Source: Sipunculus nudus (Eukaryota > Annelida > Sipuncula > Golfingiida > Sipunculidae). Taken from it: a DNA stretch of 64,000 nucleotides. The stretch is from the NCBI GenBank assembly GCA_026874595.1, contig CM049316.1:63407176-63471175 (forward strand). The letters run 5' to 3'. Numbering within the stretch: position 1 is the first letter of the stretch; each line of letters opens with the position of its first letter. The position numbers and the translations under genes were made by a program. The notes under the pieces are model-generated. The model had not been told where the DNA came from. It searched no databases and saw only the letters and a program-made list of their open reading frames with translations. This document shows, in pieces, positions 1 through 60,054 of the stretch.

Positions 1-1128
1 AAGATTTATTGTCAATTACAAAGAACGAAATATACCATGTTTGTAAGTCTGATAAAATTGTTTTAAAATGTTTGAATTATTTGTGTTGATGGCATTACTC
101 GAACAGATTCAGATATTTTTCGAAAACGTGTGAATCGAAAATACAAATTTCAAAGATTGCGCTTTACTGAGTACCCTCTAGTTATATTTGACCGATTGAA
201 TGAATGTACCGAAATATGATATATATTTAGCAAACGCTTATTTGAGCCCAGTGTAGGCGGTTGCATTATAGTTATCGGTTTTACCAAACGTCATGCCGCC
301 TGTCCGTCCGTCACGGTCGTTCGCGCGCATTGTAAAGTCAAAGACCGTTCCGGCCACTGCCGCGAATTTTGACTGAAGATATATACTTTTACCAGGACGA
401 GCGCGATTGATCTCAAACCGATCAGAAATCCGTAACGTCGACAGGCAGGCATCATAGAATTTTCTGATCACGAGCAATAACGAAGAACCTTTAATGTCTC
501 AGTCATTTCTGGTCATTATTCTGTGATATGTACTCTTAAAAAATAATTCACCACCTTGAAAATTAATGGAAAGCTGTTATAGACCGTATAAATATCACAG
601 TTCCCCGTATATTCTTTGTCCGGATTATTAATAATATTCTTTGGTGAGTGTTACGTAAGAGAGTAAATGAACGCATCCAGGTGGAGATAACATGAGTCAC
701 GGTAAGGTTGCATCACAGGTGTGCTTTGTACGCCAGGAGTAAGGTGGTCCCTGATCCAAGTGAATGACAATGGTCTGGAAATCGGATGAGTTCAAGAAAT
801 TACGCTATCTCGAAATCGGAAAGAATGCCGTAAATAGGAAATGTACTTTATCTGTTGCAGATTAAATAAATATTTATTTCGAGGTTGTAGACCTAACCTG
901 CAACAAAGTTTCATGAAGATCGCATCCTTACCTTTTAAAATTAGTTGCTGACAGACAGAGAGATCAACCGCGAAAGCGAGAGCATGAAATCAACAAACAC
1001 CGATAAAAACATAATGCCTCCTCACGAAGATGTAATAAAAATAATAAATATTTACAAGAATAATAATTATAATAAAAATTGTAATAATTATGATCGTGAA
1101 GGTGAAGGTCAGATCTGTATGAGATACT

Positions 1129-1144
1129 GGCTCTGAAAAGAGCC
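1129..1144 (-). terminator. Histone-type 3' stem-loop, copy 1
   Basis: On the - strand this reads GGCTCT, loop TTTC, AGAGCC, the form bound by stem-loop binding protein on metazoan histone pre-mRNAs. It is preceded by an A-rich stretch (AATACAA) as in histone genes. I see no clear purine-rich histone downstream element within the next 40 nt. Confidence 0.85.
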
Positions 1145-1181
1145 TTGTATTTAACTCAGTTTGAGTTTAACGGGTGTTTTC

Positions 1182-1475
1182 TCAGTTGGTGTTCTCCTGG
1201 TAGATTTGTCTGAGCTCCTGCTGAAGCACAGCCATCTGTTCCCGAAGTTTCTCTTTGTAGCGCCAGTAGGAAGCTCTGGTCTCAGGCAGAACCGCCAACT
1301 CAATGCGATTGTTGTAGCGACAGCCCCAAGCACCAGACTTCTCAGACCGCTGGTAACGCATTGCTGTTAGCTGCATTCTGTCTGCCAGTAAGGTCAGCTG
1401 CTGCTCTGCCCTCTTCAGCTTCATCTGTGTGAAGACAAGCTGCTTGTAGATAATGTTAGCTTCCGTTAATGCCAT
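1182..1475 (-). CDS. Small basic helical protein, array copy 1 (97 aa, unknown function)
   Basis: I do not recognise this protein. It is 97 residues. The commonest version has 6 K and 10 R against 9 E and 1 D, a net charge near +6. Residues about 3-45 and 57-94 look like two long amphipathic helices with heptad-like Leu/Ile/Met spacing, joined by a Gly/Trp/Cys/Asn-containing turn (about 47-56). It could form a helical hairpin or coiled-coil dimer. No signal peptide, membrane segment or histone-fold match is visible. The frame is bounded upstream by a TAA inside the TATA box. An upstream TTG also lies in frame, but the ATG at 1475 is the natural start. The short leader, lack of introns and histone-type stem-loop 37 nt after the TGA make the gene look like a replication-dependent histone gene. 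Cell-cycle or germline/embryonic expression is inference. Relative to the commonest protein (copy 5) this copy has H64P. Confidence 0.62.
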   Translation of the reverse strand: MALTEANIIYKQLVFTQMKLKRAEQQLTLLADRMQLTAMRYQRSEKSGAWGCRYNNRIELAVLPETRASYWRYKEKLREQMAVLQQELRQIYQENTN

Positions 1476-1520
1476 CTTGAGTACCAGAATGGATCTGCTG
1501 AACTGGGATGTGCAGTTCAA

Positions 1521-1528
1521 TTTTTATA
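1521..1528 (-). promoter_or_regulatory. TATA box of the array gene (copy 1; same place in every copy)
   Basis: On the - strand this reads TATAAAAA. It lies 46-53 nt upstream of the ATG in every unit. The TAA inside it closes the coding frame upstream, so the ATG is the first possible AUG start in that frame. Two start-site candidates follow: TTCAG about 30 nt downstream, and CCATTC (1487-1492), which resembles the PyCATTCPu cap motif of invertebrate histone genes but has T at the last position. Some copies have CCATTA instead, so the second candidate is not strictly kept. Confidence 0.65.
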
Positions 1529-1585
1529 CTCGAAGCTGAGTAGTTCAGTGACATGTTGGTGTAGTATCAGAGCATATAGACAGCC

Positions 1586-1591
1586 CACGTG
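1586..1591. promoter_or_regulatory. E-box CACGTG upstream of the array gene (copy 1)
   Basis: The palindrome CACGTG lies 111 nt upstream of the ATG. The equivalent in copy 4 is at 7373-7378, at the same distance. It is present in nearly every unit; unit 22 has CACATG instead. Such sites bind bHLH-zip factors (Myc/Max, USF). A role here is inference from position only. Confidence 0.4.
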
Positions 1592-1680
1592 ACACAAGTC
1601 TTTGTACTCCGTAGCGCGTGTGGTCTACTAGTGCTTGATGAGCGTCTCCGCCGCCAGCTACAGTTTTTTATGCGAAGTGT

Positions 1681-1743
1681 CTGAGGAGTTTGCCTAATTA
1701 CCTGAGAAGTTTGTTTGATTACCTGAGTAGTATGTTCAACTAG
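1681..1743. repeat. 21-bp subrepeats, three copies (unit 1)
   Basis: Three tandem 21-bp variants that begin CTGAG and share a central GTTTG/ATTTG core lie about 200 nt upstream of the gene. Equivalent triplets occur in most units. Because 21 is a multiple of three, a - strand frame stays open and would read a seven-residue repeat, but this frame has no ATG start. Confidence 0.7.
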
Positions 1744-3050: not shown

Positions 3051-3066
3051 GGCTCTGAAAAGAGCC
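3051..3066 (-). terminator. Histone-type 3' stem-loop, copy 2
   Basis: Perfect 6-bp stem, loop TTTC, 37 nt after the stop codon. Confidence 0.85.
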
Positions 3067-3103: not shown

Positions 3104-3397
3104 TCAGTTGGTGTTCTCCTGGTAGATTTGTCTGAGCTCCTGCTGAAGCACAGCCATCTGTTCCCGAAGTTTCTCTTTGTAGCGCCAGTAGGAAGCTCTG
3201 GTCTCATGCAGAACCGCCAACTCAATGCGATTGTTGTAGCGACAGCCCCAAGCACCAGACTTCTCAGACCGCTGGTAACGCGTTGCTGTTAGCTGCATTC
3301 TGTCTGCCAGTAAGGTCAGCTGCTGCTCTGCCCTCTTCAGCTTCATCTGTGTGAAGACAAGCTGCTTGTAGATAATGTTAGCTTCCGTTAATGCCAT
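3104..3397 (-). CDS. Small basic helical protein, array copy 2
   Basis: The 97-codon frame is intact, with M39T relative to copy 5. Copies 9 and 17, the equivalent positions of the later higher-order repeats, share M39T. Confidence 0.6.
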   Translation of the reverse strand: MALTEANIIYKQLVFTQMKLKRAEQQLTLLADRMQLTATRYQRSEKSGAWGCRYNNRIELAVLHETRASYWRYKEKLREQMAVLQQELRQIYQENTN

Positions 3398-4984: not shown

Positions 4985-5000
4985 GGCTCTTAAAAGAGCC
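4985..5000 (-). terminator. Histone-type 3' stem-loop, copy 3 (TTTA loop)
   Basis: Same perfect stem with loop TTTA instead of TTTC, which as I understand the metazoan loop consensus is also tolerated. Confidence 0.83.
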
Positions 5001-5037: not shown

Positions 5038-5331
5038 TCAGTTGGTGTTCTCCTGGCAGATTTGTCTAAGCTCCTGCTTGAGCAAAGCCATCTGTTCCCG
5101 AAGTTTCTCTCTGTAGCGCCAGTAGGAAGCTCTGGTCTCATGCAGTACCGCCAACTCAATGCGATTGTTGTAGCGACAGCCCCAAGCACCAGACTTCTCA
5201 GACCGCTGGTAACGCATTGCTGTTAGCTGCATTCTGTCTGCCAGTAACGTCAGCTGCTGCTCTGCCCTCTTCAGCTTTATCTGTGTGAAGACAAACTGCT
5301 CGTAGATAATGTTAGCTTCCGTAAATGCCAT
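5038..5331 (-). CDS. Small basic helical protein, array copy 3 (divergent variant)
   Basis: Intact, with eight substitutions relative to copy 5: L3F, K11E, L13F, M18I, K74R, V83L, Q85K and Y92C. Most are conservative and keep the helical pattern. Copies 10 and 18 have the same protein, so this is a stable subtype of the higher-order repeat. Confidence 0.6.
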   Translation of the reverse strand: MAFTEANIIYEQFVFTQIKLKRAEQQLTLLADRMQLTAMRYQRSEKSGAWGCRYNNRIELAVLHETRASYWRYREKLREQMALLKQELRQICQENTN

Positions 5332-6915: not shown

Positions 6916-6931
6916 GGCTCTGAAAAGAGCC
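6916..6931 (-). terminator. Histone-type 3' stem-loop, copy 4
   Basis: Perfect stem, loop TTTC, 37 nt after the stop codon. Confidence 0.85.
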
Positions 6932-6968: not shown

Positions 6969-7262
6969 TCAGTTGGTGTTCTCCTGGTAGATTTGTCTGA
7001 GCTCCTGCTGAAGCACAGCCATCTGTTCCCGAAGTTTCTCTTTGTAGCGCCAGTAGGAAGCTCTGGTCTCAGGCAGAACCGCCAACTCAATGCGATTGTT
7101 GTAGCGACAGCCCCAAGCACCAGACTTCTCAGACCGCTGGTAACGCATTGCTGTTAGCTGCATTCTGTCTGCCAGTAAGGTCAGCTGCTGCTCTGCCCTC
7201 TTCAGCTTCATCTGTGTGAAGACAAGCTGCTTGTAGATAATGTTAGCTTCCGTTAATGCCAT
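6969..7262 (-). CDS. Small basic helical protein, array copy 4
   Basis: Intact, with H64P. The complete compact gene is easy to read here: TATA box 7308-7315, ATG at 7262, TGA at 6969 and stem-loop at 6916-6931. Copies 11 and 19 are its counterparts. Confidence 0.62.
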   Translation of the reverse strand: MALTEANIIYKQLVFTQMKLKRAEQQLTLLADRMQLTAMRYQRSEKSGAWGCRYNNRIELAVLPETRASYWRYKEKLREQMAVLQQELRQIYQENTN

Positions 7263-8899: not shown

Positions 8900-9193
8900 T
8901 CAGTTGGTGTTCTCCTGGTAGATTTGTCTGAGCTCCTGCTGAAGCACAGCCATCTGTTCCCGAAGTTTCTCTTTGTAGCGCCAGTAGGAAGCTCTGGTCT
9001 CATGCAGAACCGCCAACTCAATGCGATTGTTGTAGCGACAGCCCCAAGCACCAGACTTCTCAGACCGCTGGTAACGCATTGCTGTTAGCTGCATTCTGTC
9101 TGCCAGTAAGGTCAGCTGCTGCTCTGCCCTCTTCAGCTTCATCTGTGTGAAGACAAGCTGCTTGTAGATAATGTTAGCTTCCGTTAATGCCAT
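8900..9193 (-). CDS. Small basic helical protein, array copy 5 (commonest version)
   Basis: Used here as the reference protein. Copies 6, 12, 13, 16, 20 and 21 encode the same 97 residues. The unit has a 9-nt spacer deletion upstream (near 9484) that its counterpart, unit 12, lacks, so exchange between units has happened since the higher-order repeat duplicated. Confidence 0.62.
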   Translation of the reverse strand: MALTEANIIYKQLVFTQMKLKRAEQQLTLLADRMQLTAMRYQRSEKSGAWGCRYNNRIELAVLHETRASYWRYKEKLREQMAVLQQELRQIYQENTN

Positions 9194-10824: not shown

Positions 10825-11118
10825 TCAGTTGGTGTTCTCCTGGTAGATTTGTCTGAGCTCCTGCTGAAGCACAGCCATCTGTTCCCGAAGTTTCTCTTTG
10901 TAGCGCCAGTAGGAAGCTCTGGTCTCATGCAGAACCGCCAACTCAATGCGATTGTTGTAGCGACAGCCCCAAGCACCAGACTTCTCAGACCGCTGGTAAC
11001 GCATTGCTGTTAGCTGCATTCTGTCTGCCAGTAAGGTCAGCTGCTGCTCTGCCCTCTTCAGCTTCATCTGTGTGAAGACAAGCTGCTTGTAGATAATGTT
11101 AGCTTCCGTTAATGCCAT
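10825..11118 (-). CDS. Small basic helical protein, array copy 6
   Basis: Intact and identical in protein to copy 5, although the flanking spacer on its left is of the class without the 11-nt deletion. Confidence 0.62.
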   Translation of the reverse strand: MALTEANIIYKQLVFTQMKLKRAEQQLTLLADRMQLTAMRYQRSEKSGAWGCRYNNRIELAVLHETRASYWRYKEKLREQMAVLQQELRQIYQENTN

Positions 11119-12755: not shown

Positions 12756-13049
12756 TCAGTTGGTGTTCTCCTGGTAGATTTGTCTGAGCTCCTGCTGAAG
12801 CACAGCCATCTGTTCCCGAAGTTTCTCTTTGTAGCGCCAGTAGGAAGCTCTGGTCTCAGGCAGAACCGCCAACTCAATGCGATTGTTGTAGCGACAGCCC
12901 CAAGCACCAGACTTCTCAGACCGCTGGTAACGCGTTGCTGTTAGCTGCATTCTGTCTGCCAGTAAGGTCAGCTGCTGCTCTGCCCTCTTCAGCTTCATCT
13001 GTGTGAAGACAAGCTGCTTGTAGATAATGTTAGCTTCCGTTAATGCCAT
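12756..13049 (-). CDS. Small basic helical protein, array copy 7
   Basis: Intact, with M39T and H64P together. Copy 14 has the same pair. The 37-nt 3' segment has two base changes relative to its neighbours (near 12729 and 12748) but no length change. Confidence 0.6.
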   Translation of the reverse strand: MALTEANIIYKQLVFTQMKLKRAEQQLTLLADRMQLTATRYQRSEKSGAWGCRYNNRIELAVLPETRASYWRYKEKLREQMAVLQQELRQIYQENTN

Positions 13050-14689: not shown

Positions 14690-14983
14690 TCAGTTGGTGT
14701 TCTCCTGGCAGATTTGTCTGAGCTCCTGCTGAAGCACAGCCATCTGTTCCTGAAGTTTCTCTCTGTAGCGCTAGTAGGAAGCTCTGGTCTCATGCAGTAC
14801 CGCCAACTCAATGCGATTGTTGTAGCGACAGCCCCAAGCACCAGACTTCTCAGACCGCTGGTAACGCATTGCTGTTAGCTGCATTCTGTCTGCCAGTAAG
14901 GTCAGCTGCTGCTCTGCCCTCTTCAGCTTCATCTGTGTGAAGACAAGCTGCTTGTAGATAATGTTAGCTTCCGTTAATGCCAT
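14690..14983 (-). pseudogene. Array copy 8, truncated by nonsense codon (hybrid unit)
   Basis: Trp71 is a TAG codon (14771-14773), so only 70 residues could be made from the ATG. The C-terminal part (low coordinates) matches copy 15, including the same TAG. The N-terminal part matches copy 16. The switch lies between about 14811 and 14899, inside the coding region. Stem-loop and TATA box are intact. Confidence 0.7.
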
Positions 14984-16611: not shown

Positions 16612-16905
16612 TCAGTTGGTGTTCTCCTGGTAGATTTGTCTGAGCTCCTGCTGAAGCACAGCCATCTGTTCCCGAAGTTTCTCTTTGTAGCGCCAGTAGG
16701 AAGCTCTGGTCTCATGCAGAACCGCCAACTCAATGCGATTGTTGTAGCGACAGCCCCAAGCACCAGACTTCTCAGACCGCTGGTAACGCGTTGCTGTTAG
16801 CTGCATTCTGTCTGCCAGTAAGGTCAGCTGCTGCTCTGCCCTCTTCAGCTTCATCTGTGTGAAGACAAGCTGCTTGTAGATAATGATAGCTTCCGTTAAT
16901 GCCAT
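16612..16905 (-). CDS. Small basic helical protein, array copy 9
   Basis: Intact, with N7I and M39T. N7I is private to this copy; the base change near 16885 also removes a stop in an overlapping, probably meaningless frame. Confidence 0.6.
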   Translation of the reverse strand: MALTEAIIIYKQLVFTQMKLKRAEQQLTLLADRMQLTATRYQRSEKSGAWGCRYNNRIELAVLHETRASYWRYKEKLREQMAVLQQELRQIYQENTN

Positions 16906-18545: not shown

Positions 18546-18839
18546 TCAGTTGGTGTTCTCCTGGCAGATTTGTCTAAGCTCCTGCTTGAGCAAAGCCATC
18601 TGTTCCCGAAGTTTCTCTCTGTAGCGCCAGTAGGAAGCTCTGGTCTCATGCAGTACCGCCAACTCAATGCGATTGTTGTAGCGACAGCCCCAAGCACCAG
18701 ACTTCTCAGACCGCTGGTAACGCATTGCTGTTAGCTGCATTCTGTCTGCCAGTAACGTCAGCTGCTGCTCTGCCCTCTTCAGCTTTATCTGTGTGAAGAC
18801 AAACTGCTCGTAGATAATGTTAGCTTCCGTAAATGCCAT
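18546..18839 (-). CDS. Small basic helical protein, array copy 10 (divergent variant)
   Basis: Intact and the same protein as copy 3, exactly 13508 bp away. Confidence 0.6.
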   Translation of the reverse strand: MAFTEANIIYEQFVFTQIKLKRAEQQLTLLADRMQLTAMRYQRSEKSGAWGCRYNNRIELAVLHETRASYWRYREKLREQMALLKQELRQICQENTN

Positions 18840-20476: not shown

Positions 20477-20770
20477 TCAGTTGGTGTTCTCCTGGTAGAT
20501 TTGTCTGAGCTCCTGCTGAAGCACAGCCATCTGTTCCCGAAGTTTCTCTTTGTAGCGCCAGTAGGAAGCTCTGGTCTCAGGCAGAACCGCCAACTCAATG
20601 CGATTGTTGTAGCGACAGCCCCAAGCACCAGACTTCTCAGACCGCTGGTAACGCATTGCTGTTAGCTGCATTCTGTCTGCCAGTAAGGTCAGCTGCTGCT
20701 CTGCCCTCTTCAGCTTCATCTGTGTGAAGACAAGCTGCTTGTAGATAATGTTAGCTTCCGTTAATGCCAT
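20477..20770 (-). CDS. Small basic helical protein, array copy 11
   Basis: Intact, H64P; counterpart of copy 4. Confidence 0.62.
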   Translation of the reverse strand: MALTEANIIYKQLVFTQMKLKRAEQQLTLLADRMQLTAMRYQRSEKSGAWGCRYNNRIELAVLPETRASYWRYKEKLREQMAVLQQELRQIYQENTN

Positions 20771-22407: not shown

Positions 22408-22701
22408 TCAGTTGGTGTTCTCCTGGTAGATTTGTCTGAGCTCCTGCTGAAGCACAGCCATCTGTTCCCGAAGTTTCTCTTTGTAGCGCCAGTAGGAAGC
22501 TCTGGTCTCATGCAGAACCGCCAACTCAATGCGATTGTTGTAGCGACAGCCCCAAGCACCAGACTTCTCAGACCGCTGGTAACGCATTGCTGTTAGCTGC
22601 ATTCTGTCTGCCAGTAAGGTCAGCTGCTGCTCTGCCCTCTTCAGCTTCATCTGTGTGAAGACAAGCTGCTTGTAGATAATGTTAGCTTCCGTTAATGCCA
22701 T
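22408..22701 (-). CDS. Small basic helical protein, array copy 12
   Basis: Intact and identical in protein to copy 5, its counterpart. Confidence 0.62.
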   Translation of the reverse strand: MALTEANIIYKQLVFTQMKLKRAEQQLTLLADRMQLTAMRYQRSEKSGAWGCRYNNRIELAVLHETRASYWRYKEKLREQMAVLQQELRQIYQENTN

Positions 22702-24341: not shown

Positions 24342-24635
24342 TCAGTTGGTGTTCTCCTGGTAGATTTGTCTGAGCTCCTGCTGAAGCACAGCCATCTGTT
24401 CCCGAAGTTTCTCTTTGTAGCGCCAGTAGGAAGCTCTGGTCTCATGCAGAACCGCCAACTCAATGCGATTGTTGTAGCGACAGCCCCAAGCACCAGACTT
24501 CTCAGACCGCTGGTAACGCATTGCTGTTAGCTGCATTCTGTCTGCCAGTAAGGTCAGCTGCTGCTCTGCCCTCTTCAGCTTCATCTGTGTGAAGACAAGC
24601 TGCTTGTAGATAATGTTAGCTTCCGTTAATGCCAT
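24342..24635 (-). CDS. Small basic helical protein, array copy 13
   Basis: Intact and identical in protein to copy 5; counterpart of copy 6. Confidence 0.62.
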   Translation of the reverse strand: MALTEANIIYKQLVFTQMKLKRAEQQLTLLADRMQLTAMRYQRSEKSGAWGCRYNNRIELAVLHETRASYWRYKEKLREQMAVLQQELRQIYQENTN

Positions 24636-26272: not shown

Positions 26273-26566
26273 TCAGTTGGTGTTCTCCTGGTAGATTTGT
26301 CTGAGCTCCTGCTGAAGCACAGCCATCTGTTCCCGAAGTTTCTCTTTGTAGCGCCAGTAGGAAGCTCTGGTCTCAGGCAGAACCGCCAACTCAATGCGAT
26401 TGTTGTAGCGACAGCCCCAAGCACCAGACTTCTCAGACCGCTGGTAACGCGTTGCTGTTAGCTGCATTCTGTCTGCCAGTAAGGTCAGCTGCTGCTCTGC
26501 CCTCTTCAGCTTCATCTGTGTGAAGACAAGCTGCTTGTAGATAATGTTAGCTTCCGTTAATGCCAT
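26273..26566 (-). CDS. Small basic helical protein, array copy 14
   Basis: Intact, M39T and H64P; counterpart of copy 7, sharing its two 3' segment changes. Confidence 0.6.
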   Translation of the reverse strand: MALTEANIIYKQLVFTQMKLKRAEQQLTLLADRMQLTATRYQRSEKSGAWGCRYNNRIELAVLPETRASYWRYKEKLREQMAVLQQELRQIYQENTN

Positions 26567-28206: not shown

Positions 28207-28500
28207 TCAGTTGGTGTTCTCCTGGCAGATTTGTCTGAGCTCCTGCTGAAGCACAGCCATCTGTTCCTGAAGTTTCTCTCTGTAGCGCTAGTAGGAAGCT
28301 CTGGTCTCATGCAGTACCGCCAACTCAATGCGATTGTTGTAGCGACAGCCCCAAGCACCAGACTTCTCAGACCGCTGGTAACGCATTGCTGTTAGCTGCA
28401 TTCTGTCTGCCAGTAACGTCAGCTGCTGCTCTGCCCTCTTCAGCTTTATCTGTGTGAAGACAAACTGCTCGTAGATAATGTTAGCTTCCGTAAATGCCAT
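28207..28500 (-). pseudogene. Array copy 15, truncated by nonsense codon
   Basis: Trp71 is TAG (28288-28290), the same lesion as copy 8. The N-terminal part carries L3F, K11E, L13F and M18I; the region beyond the stop carries K74R, R78Q and Y92C. This is the non-hybrid parent type of copy 8's C-terminal half. Confidence 0.7.
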
Positions 28501-30137: not shown

Positions 30138-30431
30138 TCAGTTGGTGTTCTCCTGGTAGATTTGTCTGAGCTCCTGCTGAAGCACAGCCATCTGTTCCCG
30201 AAGTTTCTCTTTGTAGCGCCAGTAGGAAGCTCTGGTCTCATGCAGAACCGCCAACTCAATGCGATTGTTGTAGCGACAGCCCCAAGCACCAGACTTCTCA
30301 GACCGCTGGTAACGCATTGCTGTTAGCTGCATTCTGTCTGCCAGTAAGGTCAGCTGCTGCTCTGCCCTCTTCAGCTTCATCTGTGTGAAGACAAGCTGCT
30401 TGTAGATAATGTTAGCTTCCGTTAATGCCAT
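30138..30431 (-). CDS. Small basic helical protein, array copy 16
   Basis: Intact, same protein as copy 5. It is the unit type missing from higher-order copy A. Its N-terminal half and upstream spacer, including a 9-nt deletion near 30722, reappear in unit 8. Confidence 0.62.
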   Translation of the reverse strand: MALTEANIIYKQLVFTQMKLKRAEQQLTLLADRMQLTAMRYQRSEKSGAWGCRYNNRIELAVLHETRASYWRYKEKLREQMAVLQQELRQIYQENTN

Positions 30432-32059: not shown

Positions 32060-32353
32060 TCAGTTGGTGTTCTCCTGGTAGATTTGTCTGAGCTCCTGCT
32101 GAAGCACAGCCATCTGTTCCCGAAGTTTCTCTTTGTAGCGCCAGTAGGAAGCTCTGGTCTCATGCAGAACCGCCAACTCAATGCGATTGTTGTAGCGACA
32201 GCCCCAAGCACCAGACTTCTCAGACCGCTGGTAACGCGTTGCTGTTAGCTGCATTCTGTCTGCCAGTAAGGTCAGCTGCTGCTCTGCCCTCTTCAGCTTC
32301 ATCTGTGTGAAGACAAGCTGCTTGTAGATAATGTTAGCTTCCGTTAATGCCAT
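32060..32353 (-). CDS. Small basic helical protein, array copy 17
   Basis: Intact, M39T; counterpart of copies 2 and 9 and first unit of higher-order copy C. Confidence 0.6.
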   Translation of the reverse strand: MALTEANIIYKQLVFTQMKLKRAEQQLTLLADRMQLTATRYQRSEKSGAWGCRYNNRIELAVLHETRASYWRYKEKLREQMAVLQQELRQIYQENTN

Positions 32354-33993: not shown

Positions 33994-34287
33994 TCAGTTG
34001 GTGTTCTCCTGGCAGATTTGTCTAAGCTCCTGCTTGAGCAAAGCCATCTGTTCCCGAAGTTTCTCTCTGTAGCGCCAGTAGGAAGCTCTGGTCTCATGCA
34101 GTACCGCCAACTCAATGCGATTGTTGTAGCGACAGCCCCAAGCACCAGACTTCTCAGACCGCTGGTAACGCATTGCTGTTAGCTGCATTCTGTCTGCCAG
34201 TAACGTCAGCTGCTGCTCTGCCCTCTTCAGCTTTATCTGTGTGAAGACAAACTGCTCGTAGATAATGTTAGCTTCCGTAAATGCCAT
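33994..34287 (-). CDS. Small basic helical protein, array copy 18 (divergent variant)
   Basis: Intact, same protein as copies 3 and 10. A spacer base near 33601 differs from those two, a small sign of independent change. Confidence 0.6.
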   Translation of the reverse strand: MAFTEANIIYEQFVFTQIKLKRAEQQLTLLADRMQLTAMRYQRSEKSGAWGCRYNNRIELAVLHETRASYWRYREKLREQMALLKQELRQICQENTN

Positions 34288-35924: not shown

Positions 35925-36218
35925 TCAGTTGGTGTTCTCCTGGTAGATTTGTCTGAGCTCCTGCTGAAGCACAGCCATCTGTTCCCGAAGTTTCTCTTTG
36001 TAGCGCCAGTAGGAAGCTCTGGTCTCAGGCAGAACCGCCAACTCAATGCGATTGTTGTAGCGACAGCCCCAAGCACCAGACTTCTCAGACCGCTGGTAAC
36101 GCATTGCTGTTAGCTGCATTCTGTCTGCCAGTAAGGTCAGCTGCTGCTCTGCCCTCTTCAGCTTCATCTGTGTGAAGACAAGCTGCTTGTAGATAATGTT
36201 AGCTTCCGTTAATGCAAT
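35925..36218 (-). pseudogene. Array copy 19, start codon lost
   Basis: The ATG is ATT here (36216-36218) while the remaining 96 codons are intact with H64P. The next in-frame Met is residue 18, so a normal product is unlikely unless a non-AUG start is used. TATA box and stem-loop remain. Confidence 0.6.
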
Positions 36219-37855: not shown

Positions 37856-38149
37856 TCAGTTGGTGTTCTCCTGGTAGATTTGTCTGAGCTCCTGCTGAAG
37901 CACAGCCATCTGTTCCCGAAGTTTCTCTTTGTAGCGCCAGTAGGAAGCTCTGGTCTCATGCAGAACTGCCAACTCAATGCGATTGTTGTAGCGACAGCCC
38001 CAAGCACCAGACTTCTCAGACCGCTGGTAACGCATTGCTGTTAGCTGCATTCTGTCTGCCAGTAAGGTCAGCTGCTGCTCTGCCCTCTTCAGCTTCATCT
38101 GTGTGAAGACAAGCTGCTTGTAGATAATGTTAGCTTCCGTTAATGCCAT
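37856..38149 (-). CDS. Small basic helical protein, array copy 20
   Basis: Intact, same protein as copy 5, with a silent change in the Ala61 codon. Counterpart of copies 5 and 12. Confidence 0.62.
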   Translation of the reverse strand: MALTEANIIYKQLVFTQMKLKRAEQQLTLLADRMQLTAMRYQRSEKSGAWGCRYNNRIELAVLHETRASYWRYKEKLREQMAVLQQELRQIYQENTN

Positions 38150-39785: not shown

Positions 39786-40079
39786 TCAGTTGGTGTTCTC
39801 CTGGTAGATTTGTCTGAGCTCCTGCTGAAGCACAGCCATCTGTTCCCGAAGTTTCTCTTTGTAGCGCCAGTAGGAAGCTCTGGTCTCATGCAGAACCGCC
39901 AACTCAATGCGATTGTTGTAGCGACAGCCCCAAGCACCAGACTTCTCAGACCGCTGGTAACGCATTGCTGTTAGCTGCATTCTGTCTGCCAGTAAGGTCA
40001 GCTGCTGCTCTGCCCTCTTCAGCTTCATCTGTGTGAAGACAAGCTGCTTGTAGATAATGTTAGCTTCCGTTAATGCCAT
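39786..40079 (-). CDS. Small basic helical protein, array copy 21
   Basis: Intact, same 97-residue protein as copy 5. The base just outside the stem on its plus-strand right flank differs (near 39749), but the stem itself does not. Confidence 0.62.
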   Translation of the reverse strand: MALTEANIIYKQLVFTQMKLKRAEQQLTLLADRMQLTAMRYQRSEKSGAWGCRYNNRIELAVLHETRASYWRYKEKLREQMAVLQQELRQIYQENTN

Positions 40080-41717: not shown

Positions 41718-42011
41718 TCAGTTGGTGTTCTCCTGGTAGATTTGTCTGAGCTCCTGCTGAAGCACAGCCATCTGTTCCTGAAGTTTCTCTCTGTAGCGCC
41801 AGTAGGAAGCTCTGGTCTCATGCAACACCGCCAACTCAATGCGATTGTTGTAGCGACAGCCCCATGCACCAGACTTCTCAGACCGCTGGTAACGCATTGC
41901 TGTTAGCTGCATTCTGTCTGTCAGTAACGTCAGCTGCTGCTCTGCCCTCTTCAGCTTTATCTGTGTGAAGACAAACTGCTCGTAGATAATGTTAGCTTCC
42001 GTAAATGCCAT
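41718..42011 (-). CDS. Small basic helical protein, array copy 22
   Basis: Intact, with L3F, K11E, L13F, M18I, A31T, K74R and R78Q. It is the first strongly divergent edge copy with an intact frame; its upstream E-box is mutated to CACATG. Confidence 0.6.
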   Translation of the reverse strand: MAFTEANIIYEQFVFTQIKLKRAEQQLTLLTDRMQLTAMRYQRSEKSGAWGCRYNNRIELAVLHETRASYWRYREKLQEQMAVLQQELRQIYQENTN

Positions 42012-43654: not shown

Positions 43655-43948
43655 TCAGTTGGTGTTCTCCTGGTAGATTTGTCTGAGCTCCTGCTGAAGC
43701 ACAGCCATCTGTTCCCGAAGTTTCTTTTTGTAGCGCCAGTAGGAAGCTCTGGTCTCATGCAGAACCGCCAACTCAATGCGATTGTTGTAGCGACAGCCCC
43801 AAGCACCAGACTTCTCAGACCGCTGGTAACGCATTGCTGTTAGCTGCATTCTGTCTGCCAGTAAGGTCAGCTGCTGCACTGCCCTATTCAGCTTCATCTG
43901 TGTGAAGACAAACTGCTTGTAGATAATGTTAGCTTCCGTAAATGCCAT
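43655..43948 (-). CDS. Small basic helical protein, array copy 23
   Basis: Intact, with L3F, L13F, K21N, E24V and E75K. K21N and E24V are non-conservative within the first helix, so function may be altered. Confidence 0.57.
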   Translation of the reverse strand: MAFTEANIIYKQFVFTQMKLNRAVQQLTLLADRMQLTAMRYQRSEKSGAWGCRYNNRIELAVLHETRASYWRYKKKLREQMAVLQQELRQIYQENTN

Positions 43949-45599: not shown

Positions 45600-45893
45600 T
45601 CAGTTGGTGTTCTCCTGGTAGATTTGTCTGAGCTCCTGCTGAAGCACAGCCATCTGTTCCTGAAGTTTCTCTCTGTAGCGCCAATAGGAAGGTCTGGTCT
45701 CATGCAACACCGCCAACTCAATGCGATTGTTGTAGCGACAGCCCCAAGCACCAGACTTCTCAGACCGATGGTAACGCATTGCTGTTAGCTGCATTCTGTC
45801 CGCCAGTAACGTCAGCTGCTGCTCTGCCCTTTTCAGCTTCATCTGTGTGAAGACAAACTGCTTGTAGATAATGTTAGCTTCCGTAAATGCCAT
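45600..45893 (-). CDS. Small basic helical protein, array copy 24
   Basis: Intact, with L3F, L13F, Q42H, A68P, K74R and R78Q. The proline at 68 would kink the second helix. Copy 25 has the same protein. Confidence 0.57.
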   Translation of the reverse strand: MAFTEANIIYKQFVFTQMKLKRAEQQLTLLADRMQLTAMRYHRSEKSGAWGCRYNNRIELAVLHETRPSYWRYREKLQEQMAVLQQELRQIYQENTN

Positions 45894-47542: not shown

Positions 47543-47836
47543 TCAGTTGGTGTTCTCCTGGTAGATTTGTCTGAGCTCCTGCTGAAGCACAGCCATCTGT
47601 TCCTGAAGTTTCTCTCTGTAGCGCCAATAGGAAGGTCTGGTCTCATGCAACACCGCCAACTCAATGCGATTGTTGTAGCGACAGCCCCAAGCACCAGACT
47701 TCTCAGACCGATGGTAACGCATTGCTGTTAGCTGCATTCTGTCCGCCAGTAACGTCAGCTGCTGCTCTGCCCTTTTCAGCTTCATCTGTGTGAAGACAAA
47801 CTGCTTGTAGATAATGTTAGCTTCCGTAAATGCCAT
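47543..47836 (-). CDS. Small basic helical protein, array copy 25
   Basis: Intact and the same protein as copy 24, 1943 bp away, as part of a recent one-unit duplication. Confidence 0.57.
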   Translation of the reverse strand: MAFTEANIIYKQFVFTQMKLKRAEQQLTLLADRMQLTAMRYHRSEKSGAWGCRYNNRIELAVLHETRPSYWRYREKLQEQMAVLQQELRQIYQENTN

Positions 47837-49484: not shown

Positions 49485-49780
49485 TCAGTTGGTGTTCTCC
49501 TGGTAGATTTGTCTGAGCTCCTGCTGAAGCACAGCCATCTGTTCCTGAAGTTTCTCTCTGTAGCGCCAGTAGGAAGCTCTGGTCTCATGCAGTACCGCTT
49601 ACACTCAATGCGATTGTTGTAGCGACAGCCCCATGCACCAGACTTCTCAGACCGCTTGTTACGCATTGCTGTTAGCTGCATTCTGTCTGCCAGTAACGTC
49701 AGCTGCTGCTCTGCCCTCTTCAGCTTCATCTGTGTGAAGACAAGCTGCTTGTAGATAATGTTAGCTTCCGTAAATGCCAT
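49485..49780 (-). pseudogene. Array copy 26, frameshifted by a 2-nt insertion
   Basis: Two extra bases after codon 59 (near 49600) shift the frame, so the C-terminal third reads out of phase and runs past the normal stop to 49454. Y41N and Q42K are also present. TATA box, 37-nt segment and stem-loop are kept. Confidence 0.7.
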
Positions 49781-51422: not shown

Positions 51423-51711
51423 TCAGTTGGTGTTCTCCTGGTAGATTTGTCTGAGCTCCTGCTGTAGCCATCTGTTCCTGAAGTTTCTCTCTGTAGCGCC
51501 AGTAGGAAGCTCTGGTCTCATGCAGTACCGCCAACTCAATGCGATTGTTGTAGCGACAGCCCCAAGCACCAGACTTCTCAGACCGCTGGTAACGCATTGC
51601 TGTTAGCTGCATTCTGTCTGCCAGTAAGGTCAGCTGCTGCTCTGCCCTCTTCAGCTTCATCTGTGTGAAGACAAACTGCTTGTAGATAATGTTAGCTTCC
51701 GTTAATGCCAT
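51423..51711 (-). pseudogene. Array copy 27, frameshifted by a 5-nt deletion
   Basis: Five bases are missing after codon 82 (near 51466), which replaces the last 15 residues with an out-of-phase tail ending at 51397. Copy 28 has the same deletion, so the two share an ancestor. Confidence 0.7.
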
Positions 51712-53299: not shown

Positions 53300-53315
53300 G
53301 GCTCTGAAAAGAGCC
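53300..53315 (-). terminator. Histone-type 3' stem-loop, copy 28
   Basis: Perfect stem, loop TTTC. Confidence 0.85.
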
Positions 53316-53352: not shown

Positions 53353-53641
53353 TCAGTTGGTGTTCTCCTGGTAGATTTGTCTGAGCTCCTGCTGTAGCCA
53401 TCTGTTCCTGAAGTTTCTCTCTGTAGCGCCAGTAGGAAGCTCTGGTCTCATGCAGTACCGCCAACTCAATGCGATTGTTGTAGCGACAGTCCCAAGCACC
53501 AGACTTCTCAGACCGCTGGTAACGCATTGCTGTTAGCTGCATTCTGTCTGCCAGTAACGTCAGCTGCTGCTCTGCCCTCTTCAGCTTTATCTGTGTGAAG
53601 ACAAACTGCTCCTAGATAATGTTAGCTTCCGTAAATGCCAT
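53353..53641 (-). pseudogene. Array copy 28, nonsense codon plus 5-nt deletion
   Basis: Codon 10 (Tyr) is TAG (53612-53614), and the 5-nt deletion of copy 27 follows near the 3' end. This is the most damaged copy, yet its stem-loop is still perfect. Confidence 0.75.
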
Positions 53642-55240
53642 CTTGAGTACCAGAATGGATCTGCTGAGCTGGGATGAGCAGCTCAATTTTTATACTCGAA
53701 GCTGAGTAGTTCAGTGACATGTTGGTGTAGTATCAGAGCATGTAGACAGCCCACGTGACACAAGTCTTTGTACTCCGTAGCGCGTGTGGTGTACTAGTGC
53801 TTGATGAGCGTCTCCGCCGCCAGCTAAAGTTTTTTATGCGAAGTGTCTGAGGGGTTTGCCTAATTACTTGAGTAGTTTGTTTGATTACCTGAGTAGTTTG
53901 TTCAACTTGAGTGGACACACGTCGGGTCCCCACGTCACCCGCTGATTGTGATATTTATATATTGCATATATATATATTTCATATAAAATTGCGCAGTCAA
54001 TTACAATGTATAAATTCATGATAGTCGTCATGCGTCTGATCATTACGATTTTGCCCCAAACAGCGGACTTTTTATTCAAATTTTCGGCTGTATCTGGAAG
54101 ATTTATTGTCAATTACAAAGAACGAAACATACCATGTTTGTAAGTCTGATAAAATTGTTTTAAAATGTTTGAATTATTTGTGTTGATGGCATTACTCGAA
54201 CAGATTCAGATTTTTTTCTAAAACGTGTGAATCGAAAATACAAATTTCAAAGATTGCGCTTTACTGAGTACCCTCCAGTTATATTTGACCGATTGAATGA
54301 ATGTACCGAAATATTATATATATTTTGTAAACGCTTATTTGAGCCCAATGTTGGCGGTTGCATTATAGTCATCGGTTTTACCAAACGTCATGCCGCCTGT
54401 CCGTCCGTCACGTTCGTTCGCGCGAATTTTTAACTCAAAGACCGTTCCGGCCACTGCCGCGAATTTTTACTGAAGATATATACTTTTACTAGGACGAGCG
54501 CGATTCATCTCAAACCGATCAGAAATCCTTAACGCCGACAGGCAGCCATCATAGAATTTTCTGATCACGAGCAATAACGAAGAACATTTAATGTCTCAGT
54601 CATTTCTGGTCATAATTCTTTGATATGTACTCTTACAAAATAATTCACCACCTTGATAATTAATGGAAAGCTGTCATAGACCGTATAAATATCATAGTTC
54701 CCCGTATATTCTTTGTCCGGATTATTAATAATATTCTTTTGTGAGTGTTACGTAAGAGAGTAAATGAACGCATCCAGGTGGAGATAACATGAGTCACGGT
54801 AAGGAAATTGCGTGGTTGCATCACAGGTGTGCTTTGGACGCCAGGAGTAAGGCGGTCCCTTATTCCAGTGAATGACAATGGTCTGGAACTCGGATGAGTT
54901 CAAGAAATTACGCTATCTCGAAATCGGAAAGAAGGCCGTAAATAGGAAATGTACTCTATCGTGTTGCAGATTAAAAAAAAATATTTATTCCGATGTTGTA
55001 GACCTAACCTGCAAAAAATTTCATCAAAATCCCATCCTTGCCTTTTAAAATCAGTTGCTGTCAGATCAACCCCCAAAGCGAGAGCATGAAATCAATTAAC
55101 ACTGATAAAAACATAATACCTCCTCACGAAGATGTAATAAAAATAATAAATATTTATAATAATGATAATTATAATAAAAATTGTAATAATTATGATCGTG
55201 AAGGTGAAGGTCAGATCTGTATGAGATACTGGCTCTGAAA

Positions 55241-55256
55241 AGAGCCTTGTATTTAA
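55241..55256 (-). terminator. Histone-type 3' stem-loop, copy 29
   Basis: Perfect stem, loop TTTC. Confidence 0.83.
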
Positions 55257-55283: not shown

Positions 55284-55577
55284 TCAGTTGGTGTTCTCCT
55301 GGTAGATTTGTCTGAGCTCCTGCTGAAGCACAGCCATCTGTTCCCGAAGTTTCTCTTTGTAGCGCCAGTAGGAAGCTCTGGTCTCATGCAGAACCGCCAA
55401 CTCAATGCGATTGTTGTAGCGACAGCCCCAAGCACCAGACTTCTCAGACCGCTGGTAACGCATTTCTGTTAGCTGCATTCTGTCTGCCAGTAAGGTCAGC
55501 TGCTGCTCTGCCCTCTTCAGCTTCATCTGTGTGAAGACAAACTGCTTGTAGATAATGTTAGCTTCCGTAAATGCCAT
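55284..55577 (-). CDS. Small basic helical protein, array copy 29
   Basis: Intact, with L3F, L13F and A38E. Confidence 0.58.
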   Translation of the reverse strand: MAFTEANIIYKQFVFTQMKLKRAEQQLTLLADRMQLTEMRYQRSEKSGAWGCRYNNRIELAVLHETRASYWRYKEKLREQMAVLQQELRQIYQENTN

Positions 55578-57165: not shown

Positions 57166-57181
57166 GGCTCTGAAAAGAGCC
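57166..57181 (-). terminator. Histone-type 3' stem-loop, copy 30
   Basis: Perfect stem, loop TTTC. Confidence 0.85.
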
Positions 57182-57218: not shown

Positions 57219-57512
57219 TCAGTTGGTGTTCTCCTGGTAGATTTGTTTGAGCTCCTGCTGAAGCACAGCCATCTGTTCCTGAAGTTTCTCTCTGTAGCGC
57301 CAGTAGGAAGCTCTGGTCTCATGCAGCACCGCCAACTCAATGCGATTGTTGTAGCGACAGCCCCAAGCACCAGACTTCTGAGACCGCTGGTAACGCATTC
57401 CTGTTAGCTGCATTCTGTCTGCCAATAACGTCAGCTGCTGCTCTGCCCTTTTCAGCTTCATCTGTGTGAAGACAAACTGCTTGTAGATAATGTTAGCTTC
57501 CTTAAATGCCAT
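57219..57512 (-). CDS. Small basic helical protein, array copy 30
   Basis: Intact, with L3F, T4K, L13F, A38G, E45Q, K74R, R78Q and R89K. T4K is shared only with copy 31. The spacer upstream also has a replaced stretch around 57652-57665 shared in part with unit 31. Confidence 0.58.
   Translation of the reverse strand: MAFKEANIIYKQFVFTQMKLKRAEQQLTLLADRMQLTGMRYQRSQKSGAWGCRYNNRIELAVLHETRASYWRYREKLQEQMAVLQQELKQIYQENTN

Positions 57513-57853: not shown

Positions 57854-57856
<3 letters not shown>

Positions 57857-57884
<28 letters not shown>
57857..57884. repeat. (AT)14 microsatellite
   Basis: An uninterrupted run of 14 AT dinucleotides sits where other units have only a short imperfect TA tract. 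Unit 31 has 12 nt at the equivalent place (59834-59845). It accounts for part of the extra length of unit 30. Confidence 0.85.
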
Positions 57885-57887
<3 letters not shown>

Positions 57888-59141
57888 TCATATAAAATTG
57901 CGCAGTCAATTACAATGTATAAATTTATGATAGTCGTCATGCGTCTGGTCATTACAATTTTTCCCCAAACAGCGGACTTTTTATTCAAATTTTCGGCTGT
58001 ATCTTGAAGATTTATTGTCAATTAAAAAGAACGAAATATACCATGTTTTTAAGTCTGATATAATTGTTTTAAAATGTTTGAATTATTTGTGTTGATGGCA
58101 TTGCTCGAAAAGATTCAGATATTTTTCTAAAACGTATGAATCGAAAATACAAATTTCAAAGATTGCGCTTTACTGAGTACCCTCCAGTTATATTTGACCG
58201 ATTGAATGAATGTACCGAAATATTATATATATTTTGCAAACGCTTATTTGAGCCCAATGTTGGCGGTTGCATTATAGTCATCGGTTTTACCAAACGTCAT
58301 GCCGCCTGTCCGTCCGTCACGGTCGTTCGCGCGCATTGTTCACTCAAGGACCGTTCCGGCCACTGCCGCGAATTTTGACTGAAGATATATACTTTTACCA
58401 GGACGAGCGCGATTCACCTCAAACCGATCAGAAATCCTGAACGCCGACAGGCAGCCATTGTAGAATTTTCTGATCACCAGCAATAACGAAGAACCTTTAA
58501 TGTCTCAGTCATTTCTGGTCATAATTCTTTGATATGTACTCTTACAAAATAATTCACCACCTTGATAATTATTTGAAAGCTGTCATAGACCGTATAAATA
58601 TCATAGTTCCCCGTATATTCTGTGTCCGGATTATTAATAATATTCTTTGGTGAAATGTTACGTAAGAGAGTAAATGAACGCATCCAGGTGGAGATAACAT
58701 GAGTCACGGTAAGGAAATTGCGTGGTTGCATCACAGGTGTGCTTTGGACGCCAGGAGTAAGGCGGTCCCTGATCCCAGTGAATGACAATGGTCTGGAGCT
58801 CGGATGAGTTCAAGAAATTACGCTATCTCGAAATCGGAAAGAATGCCGTAAATAGGAAATGTACTCTATCGTGTTGCAGATTACAAAAAATATTTATTCC
58901 GATGTTGTAGACCTAACCTACAACAAAGTTTCATCAAAATCCAATCCTTACCTTTTTCAAATCAGTTGCTCACAGATCAACCCCCAAAGGGAGAGCATGA
59001 AATCAACGAACACTGATAAAAACATAATGCCTCCTCACAAAGATATAATAAAAATAATAAATATTTATAATAATAATAATTATAATAAAAATAGTTATTA
59101 TTATGATCGTGAAGGTGAAGGTCAGATCTGTATGAGATACT

Positions 59142-59157
59142 GGCTCTGAAAAGAGCC
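59142..59157 (-). terminator. Histone-type 3' stem-loop, copy 31
   Basis: Perfect stem, loop TTTC. Confidence 0.85.
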
Positions 59158-59194
59158 TTGTATTTAACTCAGTTTGAGTTTTAGGGGTGTTTTC

Positions 59195-59488
59195 TCAGTT
59201 GGTGTTCTCCTGGTAGATTTGTCTGAGCTCCTGCTGAAGCACAGCCATCTGTTCCTGAAGTTTCTCTCTGTAGCGCCAATAGGAAGCTCTGGTCTCATGC
59301 AGCACCGCCAACTCAATGCGATTGTTGTAGCGACAGCCCCAAGCACCAGACTTCTCAGACCGCTGGTAACGCATTGCTGTTAGCTGCATTCTGTCTGCCA
59401 GTAACGTCAGCTGCTGCTCTACCCTTTTCAGCTTCATCTGTGTGAAGACAAACTGCTTGTAGATAATGTTAGCTTCCTTAAATGCCAT
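59195..59488 (-). CDS. Small basic helical protein, array copy 31 (last)
   Basis: Intact, with L3F, T4K, L13F, A23V, K74R and R78Q. Although last in the array and about 570 bp from the array end, it keeps its frame, TATA box and stem-loop. Confidence 0.58.
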   Translation of the reverse strand: MAFKEANIIYKQFVFTQMKLKRVEQQLTLLADRMQLTAMRYQRSEKSGAWGCRYNNRIELAVLHETRASYWRYREKLQEQMAVLQQELRQIYQENTN

Positions 59489-59693
59489 CTTGAGTACCAG
59501 AATGGATCTGCTGAGCTGGGATGAGCAGCTCAATTTTTATACTCGAAGCTGAGTAGTTCAGTGACATGTTGGTGTAGTATCAGAGCATGTAGACAGCCCA
59601 CGTGACAGAAGTCTTTGTACTCCGTAGCGCTTGACGTCTTCTAGTGCTTGATGAGCGTCTCCGCCGCCAGCTAAAGTTTTTTATGCGAAGTGT

Positions 59694-59777
59694 CTGAGGA
59701 TTTTGCCTAATTACCTGAGTAGTTTTTTTGATTACCTGAGTAGTTTGTTTGATTACCTGAGTAGTTTGTTCAACTAG
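59694..59777. repeat. 21-bp subrepeats expanded to four copies (unit 31)
   Basis: Four 21-bp variants start at 59694, 59715, 59736 and 59757, the same expansion as in unit 30. This suggests the two end units share recent ancestry. Confidence 0.75.
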
Positions 59778-60054
59778 AGTGGACACACGTCGGGTCCCCA
59801 CGTCACCCGCTGATTGTGATATTTATATATTGCATATATATATATGTTTCATATAAATTGCGCAGTCAATTACAATGTATTAATTTATGATAGTCGTCAT
59901 GCGTCTGATCAGTACAATTTTTCCCAAAACAGGGGACTTTTTATTCAAATTTTCGGCTGTATCTTGAAGATTTATTGTCAATTAAAAAGAACGAAATATA
60001 CCATGTTTTTAAGTCTGATAAAATTGTTTTAAAATGTTTGAATTATTTGTGTTG

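Follow-up and report, generated by a model that had tools for sequence, protein, structure and literature searches.

The window, the whole 64-kb stretch of DNA that was analysed, contains 31 copies of a tandem array on C11 that comprises 46 copies over ~93 kb. The 46 hairpins of the array lie at C11:63385604-63478445, hence the array runs past the window on both sides; three further units follow downstream of a LINE retrotransposon, outside the window. A tandem non-histone family with a histone-type hairpin, as noticed in an earlier sequence-only reading, is thus confirmed and is bigger than first described. Within the window, the 31 units are spaced by 1922-1976 bp from hairpin to hairpin and form higher-order repeats (e.g. 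u3=u10, u4=u11, u6=u13). The features are, in window positions:

1..60054, minus strand: tandem block, 31 units of the 46-copy array
1182..1475, minus: u01 ORF, 97 aa; hairpin 1129-1144
3104..3397, minus: u02 ORF, 97 aa; hairpin 3051-3066
5038..5331, minus: u03 ORF, 97 aa; hairpin 4985-5000, loop A
6969..7262, minus: u04 ORF, 97 aa; hairpin 6916-6931
8900..9193, minus: u05 ORF, 97 aa, extra in-frame ATG 4 codons upstream; hairpin 8847-8862
10825..11118, minus: u06 ORF, 97 aa, extra in-frame ATG 4 codons upstream; hairpin 10772-10787
12756..13049, minus: u07 ORF, 97 aa; hairpin 12703-12718
14690..14983, minus: u08 ORF broken, W71*; hairpin 14637-14652, loop A
16612..16905, minus: u09 ORF, 97 aa; hairpin 16559-16574
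18546..18839, minus: u10 ORF, 97 aa; hairpin 18493-18508, loop A
20477..20770, minus: u11 ORF, 97 aa; hairpin 20424-20439
22408..22701, minus: u12 ORF, 97 aa, extra in-frame ATG 4 codons upstream; hairpin 22355-22370
24342..24635, minus: u13 ORF, 97 aa, extra in-frame ATG 4 codons upstream; hairpin 24289-24304
26273..26566, minus: u14 ORF, 97 aa; hairpin 26220-26235
28207..28500, minus: u15 ORF broken, W71*; hairpin 28154-28169, loop A
30138..30431, minus: u16 ORF, 97 aa, extra in-frame ATG 4 codons upstream; hairpin 30085-30100
32060..32353, minus: u17 ORF, 97 aa; hairpin 32007-32022
33994..34287, minus: u18 ORF, 97 aa; hairpin 33941-33956, loop A
35925..36218, minus: u19 ORF, start lost (ATG to ATT); hairpin 35872-35887
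37856..38149, minus: u20 ORF, 97 aa, extra in-frame ATG 4 codons upstream; hairpin 37803-37818
39786..40079, minus: u21 ORF, 97 aa; hairpin 39733-39748
41718..42011, minus: u22 ORF, 97 aa; hairpin 41665-41680
43655..43948, minus: u23 ORF, 97 aa; hairpin 43602-43617
45600..45893, minus: u24 ORF, 97 aa; hairpin 45547-45562
47543..47836, minus: u25 ORF, 97 aa; hairpin 47490-47505
49485..49780, minus: u26 ORF frameshifted; hairpin 49432-49447
51423..51711, minus: u27 ORF frameshifted; hairpin 51370-51385
53353..53641, minus: u28 ORF frameshifted, also Y10*; hairpin 53300-53315
55284..55577, minus: u29 ORF, 97 aa; hairpin 55231-55246
57219..57512, minus: u30 ORF, 97 aa; hairpin 57166-57181
59195..59488, minus: u31 ORF, 97 aa; protein used as query of the genome search
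59142..59157, minus: u31 histone-type hairpin GGCTCTTTTCAGAGCC, beginning 37 nt past the stop
59122..59133, minus: u31 histone-downstream-element-like ATACAGATCTGA, start at +9 after the hairpin (compared with host histone genes)
59535..59541, minus: u31 TATA box, TATAAAA, -53 from ATG
59549..59558, minus: u31 AACTACTCAG element, directly upstream of TATA
60055..64000, plus: non-LTR (LINE) retrotransposon inside the array; coiled-coil ORF1 60471-61961, endonuclease/RT ORF2 from 62287

The sequence-only reading had assigned to each unit, on the minus strand, a TATA box, a 97-codon frame, and a hairpin 37 nt past the stop. The hairpin, GGCTCTTTT[C/A]AGAGCC, was found on that strand in 31 of 31 units with 0 expected (100 shuffles). 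It measures 16 nt, with a 6-bp stem and a 4-nt U-rich loop, and lies shortly 3' of the stop; the variable loop base is C in 26 units and A in 5. The distance of 37 nt held in every intact unit of the window, and is 14-128 nt at other loci. TATAAAA occurs 53 nt 5' of the start-codon position in all 31 units, as does the AACTACTCAG element at -70. The latter element of u31 also recurs in a 21-bp minisatellite (59710-59770). The claim of one frame per unit stood in part: 25 of the 31 units keep the intronless 97-codon frame intact, and it is broken in u08 and u15 (both W71*), u19 (ATG lost), and u26-u28 (frameshifted, with Y10* in addition in u28).

No other 58-nt segment of the unit varies as little as the one made up of the hairpin plus 42 nt (2 changes vs a mean of 10.2). 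The hairpin alone has 1 change within the array vs 3.3 expected (P 0.16). No match reached the gathering score in an Rfam scan of the window; the Rfam Histone3 model gave 22 bits with the hairpins of u30 and u31 (E 0.0069, 3.1 kb searched, gathering score 34). When 16 ends were compared (5 histone and 11 others, unlinked paralogs included), the stem had changed on both sides at 4 of 6 pairs, yielding 14 such cells vs 3.4 in shuffles; full pairing of the stem is partly by construction, as pairing was a condition for locating the hairpins. Further pair types in the same 16 ends numbered 5, which was not above the shuffles, 492 of 500 of which were equally high.

Genome-wide, KGCTCTTHTMAGAGCM occurs 147 times vs 4 in the control. 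Its presence in unrelated repeats, named beforehand as an outcome speaking against the proposal, was looked for, and 92 of 100 places listed among the 147 sit 3' of H1 or of these non-histone genes. The other 8 of these 100 are without assigned gene (C2:30772921, C3:79164538, C3:79204913, C4:69824407, C5:60598632, C8:44134205, C10:685926, and C10:51291770). Two sites chosen for reading as hairpins without known gene, C5:60598632 and C13:67400289, lacked both a downstream element and any frame of ≥50 codons that ends in the 200 nt upstream. An alternative stem, GGTTCT..AGAACC, is dispersed in the genome (250 vs 8 in the control) and is therefore not diagnostic alone.

To describe the downstream element, we used a weight matrix built solely from the host genome's own H1, H2A, H2B, H3, and H4 genes, which were confirmed by Pfam; the consensus in this lineage is about ATTCAGATCTAR, starting ~9 nt past the hairpin. 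All 16 non-histone loci read that bear a hairpin had their best match 8-10 nt past it, 14 of them at +9 (Fisher P 3e-17, with loci treated as independent). Single-locus values were weak at C1:30.96, C1:96.4, and C10:25.2 (P 0.05-0.09), and at C1:30.98, where the loop is altered, the match was not above background (P 0.81). The spaced hairpin-plus-element pattern occurs at 61 places in the genome and at 0 in the control: 46 in the array of the window, 13 directly 3' of further members of the family, and 2 without assigned gene. A chance origin of the hairpin is unlikely because hairpin and element recur together beside unlinked paralogs. With respect to the processing factors, two adjacent matches to the SLBP domain PF15247 exceeded the cut-off at C1:29.647-29.648 Mb. 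The Rfam U7 model gave no match for U7 snRNA, and also found none in control genomes; a pattern-based U7 candidate proved to be a dispersed repeat and was rejected.

The genome (1.43 Gb) harbors relatives of the window gene in further arrays and at dispersed loci:

C3:79.2 Mb: relatives, at least 26 among the matches listed
C2:72.6 Mb: relatives, at least 60 among the matches listed (one unit of 60 read)
C3:18.8-19.0 Mb: relatives, at least 27 among the matches listed
Dispersed relatives: at least 27 loci with E<=1e-9 among the matches listed
C2:30.7 Mb: doubtfully related array with the same 3' end, 49 copies

Thirteen loci outside the window, comprising all 10 distinct loci of the first protein search and 3 of the second, were chosen on protein similarity alone and then read, and 12 of them carried the hairpin. 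At the close relative at C3:50.93 Mb no hairpin occurred in the 900 nt read, and AATAAA is located at +108. At C3:18.8-19.0 Mb, where GGTTCT was the sole stem tested, a GGTTCT hairpin follows 6 of 27 matches. Most members read encode 96-120 aa with a conserved RY...RY core, and the product is probably a small, mostly helical protein. Codon periodicity was maximal over the frame (P 0.001). Values of dN/dS were 0.16-0.28 for array copies against the C1 and C4 paralogs. Within the array, 13 of 45 changes were synonymous (P 0.28), indicating weak selection on the protein there; the total of changes was low (P 0.04). No relatives of the protein were found beyond the family's own members.

Since the host histone element lies at a fixed offset, stems have changed on both sides in unlinked paralogs, and dN/dS is low, we consider it very likely that the array and its relatives give rise to histone-type, SLBP/U7-processed messages of a non-histone family. 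This supports the original proposal of a lineage-specific non-histone protein with a histone-type 3' end and tandem amplification. From the function of such elements in histone genes we infer processing, timing, abundance, and function of the family as follows. In these genes, which are organised like replication-dependent histone genes and combine a TATA promoter and a short intronless frame with a hairpin close to the stop and the histone downstream element of the lineage, SLBP would bind the hairpin, while the U7 snRNP would pair with the downstream element; the U7 5' end is expected to pair with ATTCAGATCT. Cleavage of the pre-mRNA between hairpin and element would then release a short non-polyadenylated mRNA, produced and kept when histone mRNA is, i.e. 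in S phase, oocytes, and cleavage embryos, and the tandem copies would provide high output.

Three other explanations were weighed against such histone-type messages. It appears unlikely that the role of the hairpin is confined to the stability or translation of otherwise polyadenylated mRNAs, as in some histone variants with dual 3' ends. In 29 of 31 window units, AATAAA does follow the start of the hairpin at a distance of 256-266 nt, and poly(A) signals 3' of a hairpin have been reported for histone genes of C. elegans (PMC1924863) and bdelloids (H2Abd and H2Abd1; PMC2642717), and for the variant H2A.X (PMC7807067), as a possible signal in the latter two. The bdelloid genes and H2A.X, which share this arrangement with the window units, encode histones. 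The C. elegans mRNAs still end past the hairpin (PMC1924863), and a near-fixed U7-type element would be unexpected if SLBP binding alone mattered.

It is quite unlikely that the proteins are histone-fold or chromatin proteins diverged beyond recognition, whose 3' end was simply inherited from a histone gene. Their 3' end is of the same kind as that of H1 to H4 and several members are basic (pI 9-10.8), but others are neutral or acidic (pI 5.0-6.5). The 23 Pfam families listed at E<=1 for 13 members included no histone or linker-histone domain, nor was a histone family detected in two further array proteins (E<=0.1), whereas the host's five histones were recognised at once. Likewise, matches in a PDB profile search were coiled coils, e.g. 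BAP31 and the dynein stalk (best E 0.0035), with no histone chain among them. The initial judgment that the protein is not recognisable as H2A, H2B, H3, H4, or H1 was borne out. It is very improbable, in our view, that satellite-like or decaying DNA which at one time acquired a histone 3' end makes up the arrays, with a frame that has ceased to be, or never was, a working gene. Six of 31 broken frames, near-neutral change within the array, satellite-like higher-order repeats, and stop codons that occur also in some copies of other arrays would all fit decay. Yet 25 of 31 window copies are intact, the protein family persists at unlinked loci with 18-67% identity to the window copy and dN/dS among paralogs mostly of 0.12-0.45, and hairpin and element were retained while the stems changed on both sides.

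To our knowledge, histone messages are the only ones known to end in this way. The family shares with replication-dependent histone genes the 6-bp/4-nt hairpin soon after the stop, a near-fixed element of the same kind, the TATA box, the intronless frame, and tandem arrays; it differs in that its protein is not a recognisable histone and that each unit read holds one gene and no quintet. A tandem of H1 in this genome, at C2:27.13 Mb, shares the 16-nt hairpin GGCTCTTTTCAGAGCC exactly and has CAGATCT as its downstream element, but encodes a linker histone (Pfam), with the element one base farther from the hairpin. Other short, lineage-specific genes of animals are also tandemly amplified into many near-identical copies, e.g. 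Drosophila Stellate; these are, in contrast, ordinary polyadenylated genes and are not known to carry a histone-type end.

Taken together, the family is likely to represent a second large clientele of the histone 3'-end machinery, with ~159 copies in four arrays or clusters (among the matches listed), at least 27 dispersed loci, and a 49-copy array that may be separate, and with histone-type ends and a U7-type element at all but one locus read. The histone-only rule would then be false in this lineage, and a family of small helical proteins would be supplied as DNA replicates or be kept in the egg alongside histone mRNA. If the mRNAs lack poly(A), they would escape poly(A)-selected RNA-seq, which may be the reason that such genes seem undescribed. 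The findings suggest that a second gene family has co-opted a cell-cycle control so far regarded as exclusive to histones. If a non-histone family indeed possesses every cis element of this kind of gene, the pathway would prove to be open to new genes; the family also provides a natural test of which cis elements suffice, and would point to a protein needed in bulk alongside histones.

Tandem units on the - strand fill most of the window, and a LINE takes up the remainder. The units are 94.3–100% identical to each other and form higher-order repeats (u3=u10, u4=u11 and u6=u13 among others). The sequence-only reading had assigned a TATA box, a 97-codon ORF and a histone-type hairpin to every unit. 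The exact hairpin, GGCTCTTTT[C/A]AGAGCC, was indeed present in 31/31 units with 0 expected from shuffles, and TATAAAA occurred at a fixed place, 53 nt upstream of the start-codon position, likewise in 31/31. The ORF claim had to be narrowed, as the frame is intact in 25/31 units and broken in six:

1-60054, - strand: 31 tandem units (u01-u31)
u08 and u15, - strand: frame broken, W71* in both
u19, - strand: frame broken, start loss
u26, - strand: frame broken
u27 and u28, - strand: frames broken, 289 nt each
60055-64000, continuing to about 63.473 Mb of contig C11: LINE inside the array

The complete array holds 46 hairpins across ~93 kb, with 12 to the left of the window, 31 inside and 3 to the right of the LINE. 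Hairpin spacing across the LINE (63466317 to 63474526) implies an insertion of ~6.3 kb. Its nearest named relatives (30–37% identity) are from scallops and from bacterial MAGs labelled Thiodiazotropha and Sedimenticola, while the best matches (38–39%) come from unnamed sources. The LINE-bearing MAG sequences are probably host DNA, since both genera are bivalve symbionts. These LINE matches would point to a mollusc, perhaps a bivalve, as the source.

Among the frames that recur between units, that of 97 codons is the longest, and three-base periodicity is maximal over it. On the opposite strand, 17/31 units share a frame of 50 codons. Upstream, AACTACTCAG is found at -70 relative to the start-codon position in 31/31 units, its core appearing again near -250, and a 21-bp minisatellite of ~2-4 copies (e.g. 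59710-59770) is located ~230-280 nt before each ATG. The core CTACTCAG is common to the minisatellite and the site just upstream of TATA. Ten spacer frames from one unit gave no histone match, and no structured RNA or tRNA reached gathering score within the window.

The classical histone downstream element (HDE) is CAAGAAAGA; its best match carried 4 mismatches in 31/31 units, which is not above background. After this failure, the element was taken from the histone genes of the same genome, i.e., H1 (contig C2, 27.13 Mb; written C2:27.13 hereafter) and H2B, H4, H3 and H2A (C2:98.4), all confirmed by Pfam. All five carry the hairpin, followed by ATTCAGATCTAA, ATCAAGATCTGA, ATTCATATCTAG, ATTCAGTTCTCA or ATTCAGTTCTAA. 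A position weight matrix (PWM) was built from these five genes alone and slid across the 35 nt following each non-histone hairpin. The best position fell at +8 to +10 after the hairpin in 16/16 non-histone loci and at +9 in 14/16 (Fisher P 3e-17, with loci taken as independent, an assumption only partly true of paralogs). Single-locus P values ranged from 0.0004 to 0.81, the worst being C1:30.98, and at C3:79.2 both the edge copy and the ORF-bearing copy scored 6.7 at +9. Three of the 16 loci (C2:41.9, C4:46.1 and C2:30.7) had been discovered by their hairpin, and none by the element. The downstream element of these genes, ATTCAGATCT, is of the type found in this genome's histone genes. Genome-wide, the pattern GGNNCTTNTNAGNNCC plus 12 nt plus AGATCT occurred at 61 places in 1.43 Gb, compared to 0 in a reversed control; 46 of these are the array and another 13 are located 3' of other members of the family. 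The two further hairpin-plus-element sites, C12:44632621 and C13:49418773, have no gene assigned to them.

Non-histone stems comprise GGCTCT, TGCTCT, GGTCCT, GGTTCT and GGCCTT. In an alignment of 16 rows (5 histone and 11 other ends), two-sided changes occurred at 4/6 stem pairs, and pairing fell to 10–60% when the stem partner was slid; full pairing is partly by construction, and the number of pair types was not above that of shuffles. Within the unit, variation is lowest over the 58 nt made up of the hairpin plus 42 nt, the latter length chosen post hoc, and the hairpin by itself is not significantly conserved within the array. One stretch read (L082, 1686-1731) carries the same histone hairpin twice, at a distance of 30 nt, with the element after the second copy only, and degenerate hairpin-like repeats lie past the stop and ahead of the element-bearing hairpin in two others (L072 and L073). 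GGTTCT..AGAACC occurred at 250 places genome-wide versus 8 in the control; the 100 places listed are mostly dispersed, with at least 15 in C3:18.8-19.0, at least 6 of which directly follow a tblastn match on its 3' side, and these dispersed hairpins, of the GGTTCTTTTAAGAACC type, are perhaps part of a repeat element. GGTCCT..AGGACC occurred at 15 places versus 2 in the control, and only 2 adjoin family members.

The window corresponds to C11:63407176-63471175 in a 1.4265-Gb assembly of 153 contigs. When this assembly was queried by tblastn with the window protein, 79 rows had E<=1; they include relatives at 36–67% identity on C1, C4 and C13 and weak matches to a second array on C3 (E 0.07-0.7). 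With a C5 relative as second query, the best 150 of 230 candidates included an array at C3:79.2 (at least 26 rows, one partial), an array at C2:72.58-72.69 (at least 60 rows, 1.66-kb unit) and a cluster on both strands at C3:18.78-18.97 (at least 27 rows, E 4e-5 to 6e-4). At least 27 dispersed loci reached E<=1e-9 in either search, and a hairpin lies 3' of the match at 23 or more of the 27 listed. Examination covered 24/27, the loci outside the count being C2:23.76, C13:60.19 and a broken fragment at C3:79.154. Ten of the 23 hairpins were read directly, one of them with a changed loop (C1:30.98). The others were assigned by place in the genome-wide pattern matches, eight with their letters shown and five by hairpin-plus-element place with letters not shown (C2:36.71, C3:27.472, C3:27.477, C4:57.88 and C11:41.332). 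The remaining examined locus, C3:50.93, is closely related to the C3 array gene but has no hairpin in the stretch read and carries AATAAA at +108; it is possibly a member that has gone over to poly(A), a natural contrast. Of the weaker relatives, the one read (C14:14.400) has both hairpin and element; the others are a further pair at C14 and loci at C4:93.7, C4:58.05, C5:45.6 and C3:31.7.

This 3' end was also seen in the other arrays. Among the matches listed, TGCTCTTTTCAGAGCA occurs 3' of at least 25/26 rows at C3:79.2, and a GGTTCT stem, the one type counted, 3' of at least 6/27 rows at C3:18.8-19.0. Hairpin and element were both present in the single member read of that cluster and in the single unit read, of 60 listed, at C2:72.6. 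An array first found via its hairpin (C2:30697965-30772124; 49 copies, 1.374-kb unit, 108-aa frame, histone-type 3' end) has the exact hairpin after at least 45/49 copies among the matches listed. Its protein resembles the family weakly (10.5 bits), which makes it a doubtful member and possibly a second non-histone client of the histone-type end; the one other relative of this array is at C4:47.6 (53%).

Most members read encode 96-120 aa; the C2:72.6 frame has 140 aa, reduced to 103 if an inner ATG is used. A single conserved block is present, with K19, L30, R40, Y41 and Y73 invariant in 13 sequences. As the sequence-only reading had proposed, the protein is not a recognisable histone: Pfam assigned no histone family to any of 13 members, the best E-value being 0.0055 (RGM_C, 2 members). 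Profile resemblance to the coiled coils of BAP31 and the dynein stalk (E 0.0035-0.009), which is resemblance and not homology, suggests a helical protein. Hydrophobic periodicity of the helices was not significant (P 0.96 and 0.65), and a coiled coil beyond this resemblance is not claimed. Because pI spans 5.0 to 10.8 across members, a general DNA-binding role for the whole family is unlikely.

Changes within the array comprised 13 synonymous (14.2 expected at the spacer rate), 28 missense (39.7 expected), 3 stop (4.1 expected) and 1 start (0.6 expected). The excess of synonymous change was not significant (P 0.28) and total change was somewhat low (P 0.04), indicating almost neutral protein evolution inside the array. 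Comparison of paralogs, restricted to pairs with pN <0.42, is the stronger sign of coding: array copies compared with the genes on C1 and C4 (61–67% identity) gave a dN/dS of 0.16-0.28, and the value was 0.12-0.45 for pairs with measurable dS except a young C1 pair (0.71), dS being saturated in the remaining pairs.

The search for protein relatives that the earlier reading had proposed returned none for the window's own subfamily in 5.8 billion proteins: one sequence gave no candidate, and 10 variants gave 27, none at E<=10. Viral contigs (queried with the window protein, the hairpin pattern and another subfamily) contained no relative, and neither did prokaryote genome contigs. Judged from these searches, orphan status applies to the window's own subfamily only.

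By analogy with histone genes, SLBP would bind the hairpin and U7 snRNP the downstream element, and the transcript would be cut between them. An SLBP gene is present in the genome. U7 snRNA was not found there; the one pattern candidate (AGATCT..AATTTKTCTAG, 19 places versus 11 in the control) was rejected, as the two copies read (L088 and L089, at C11:50.06 and C2:65.88) are a dispersed repeat with AGATCTGAATTTTGCAAATTT[G/T]TCTAG, a mimic of the U7 5' part with no 3' stem. The purine-rich element varies in bivalve histone genes, as in Lucina (PMC6210712), and the histone genes of nematodes and rotifers carry downstream elements of their own (PMC1924863, PMC2642717); a lineage-specific element would therefore not be strange.

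In the full-text literature searched, mostly outside subscription journals and including PMC2413145 and PMC12153100, a histone-type 3' end was not found for any non-histone gene of an animal. The machinery is known, and, as far as these searches go, a large non-histone family using it is not. By analogy with histone genes, such a 3' end may yield an mRNA that is coupled to S phase or stored in the egg and encodes a protein required in bulk alongside histones.
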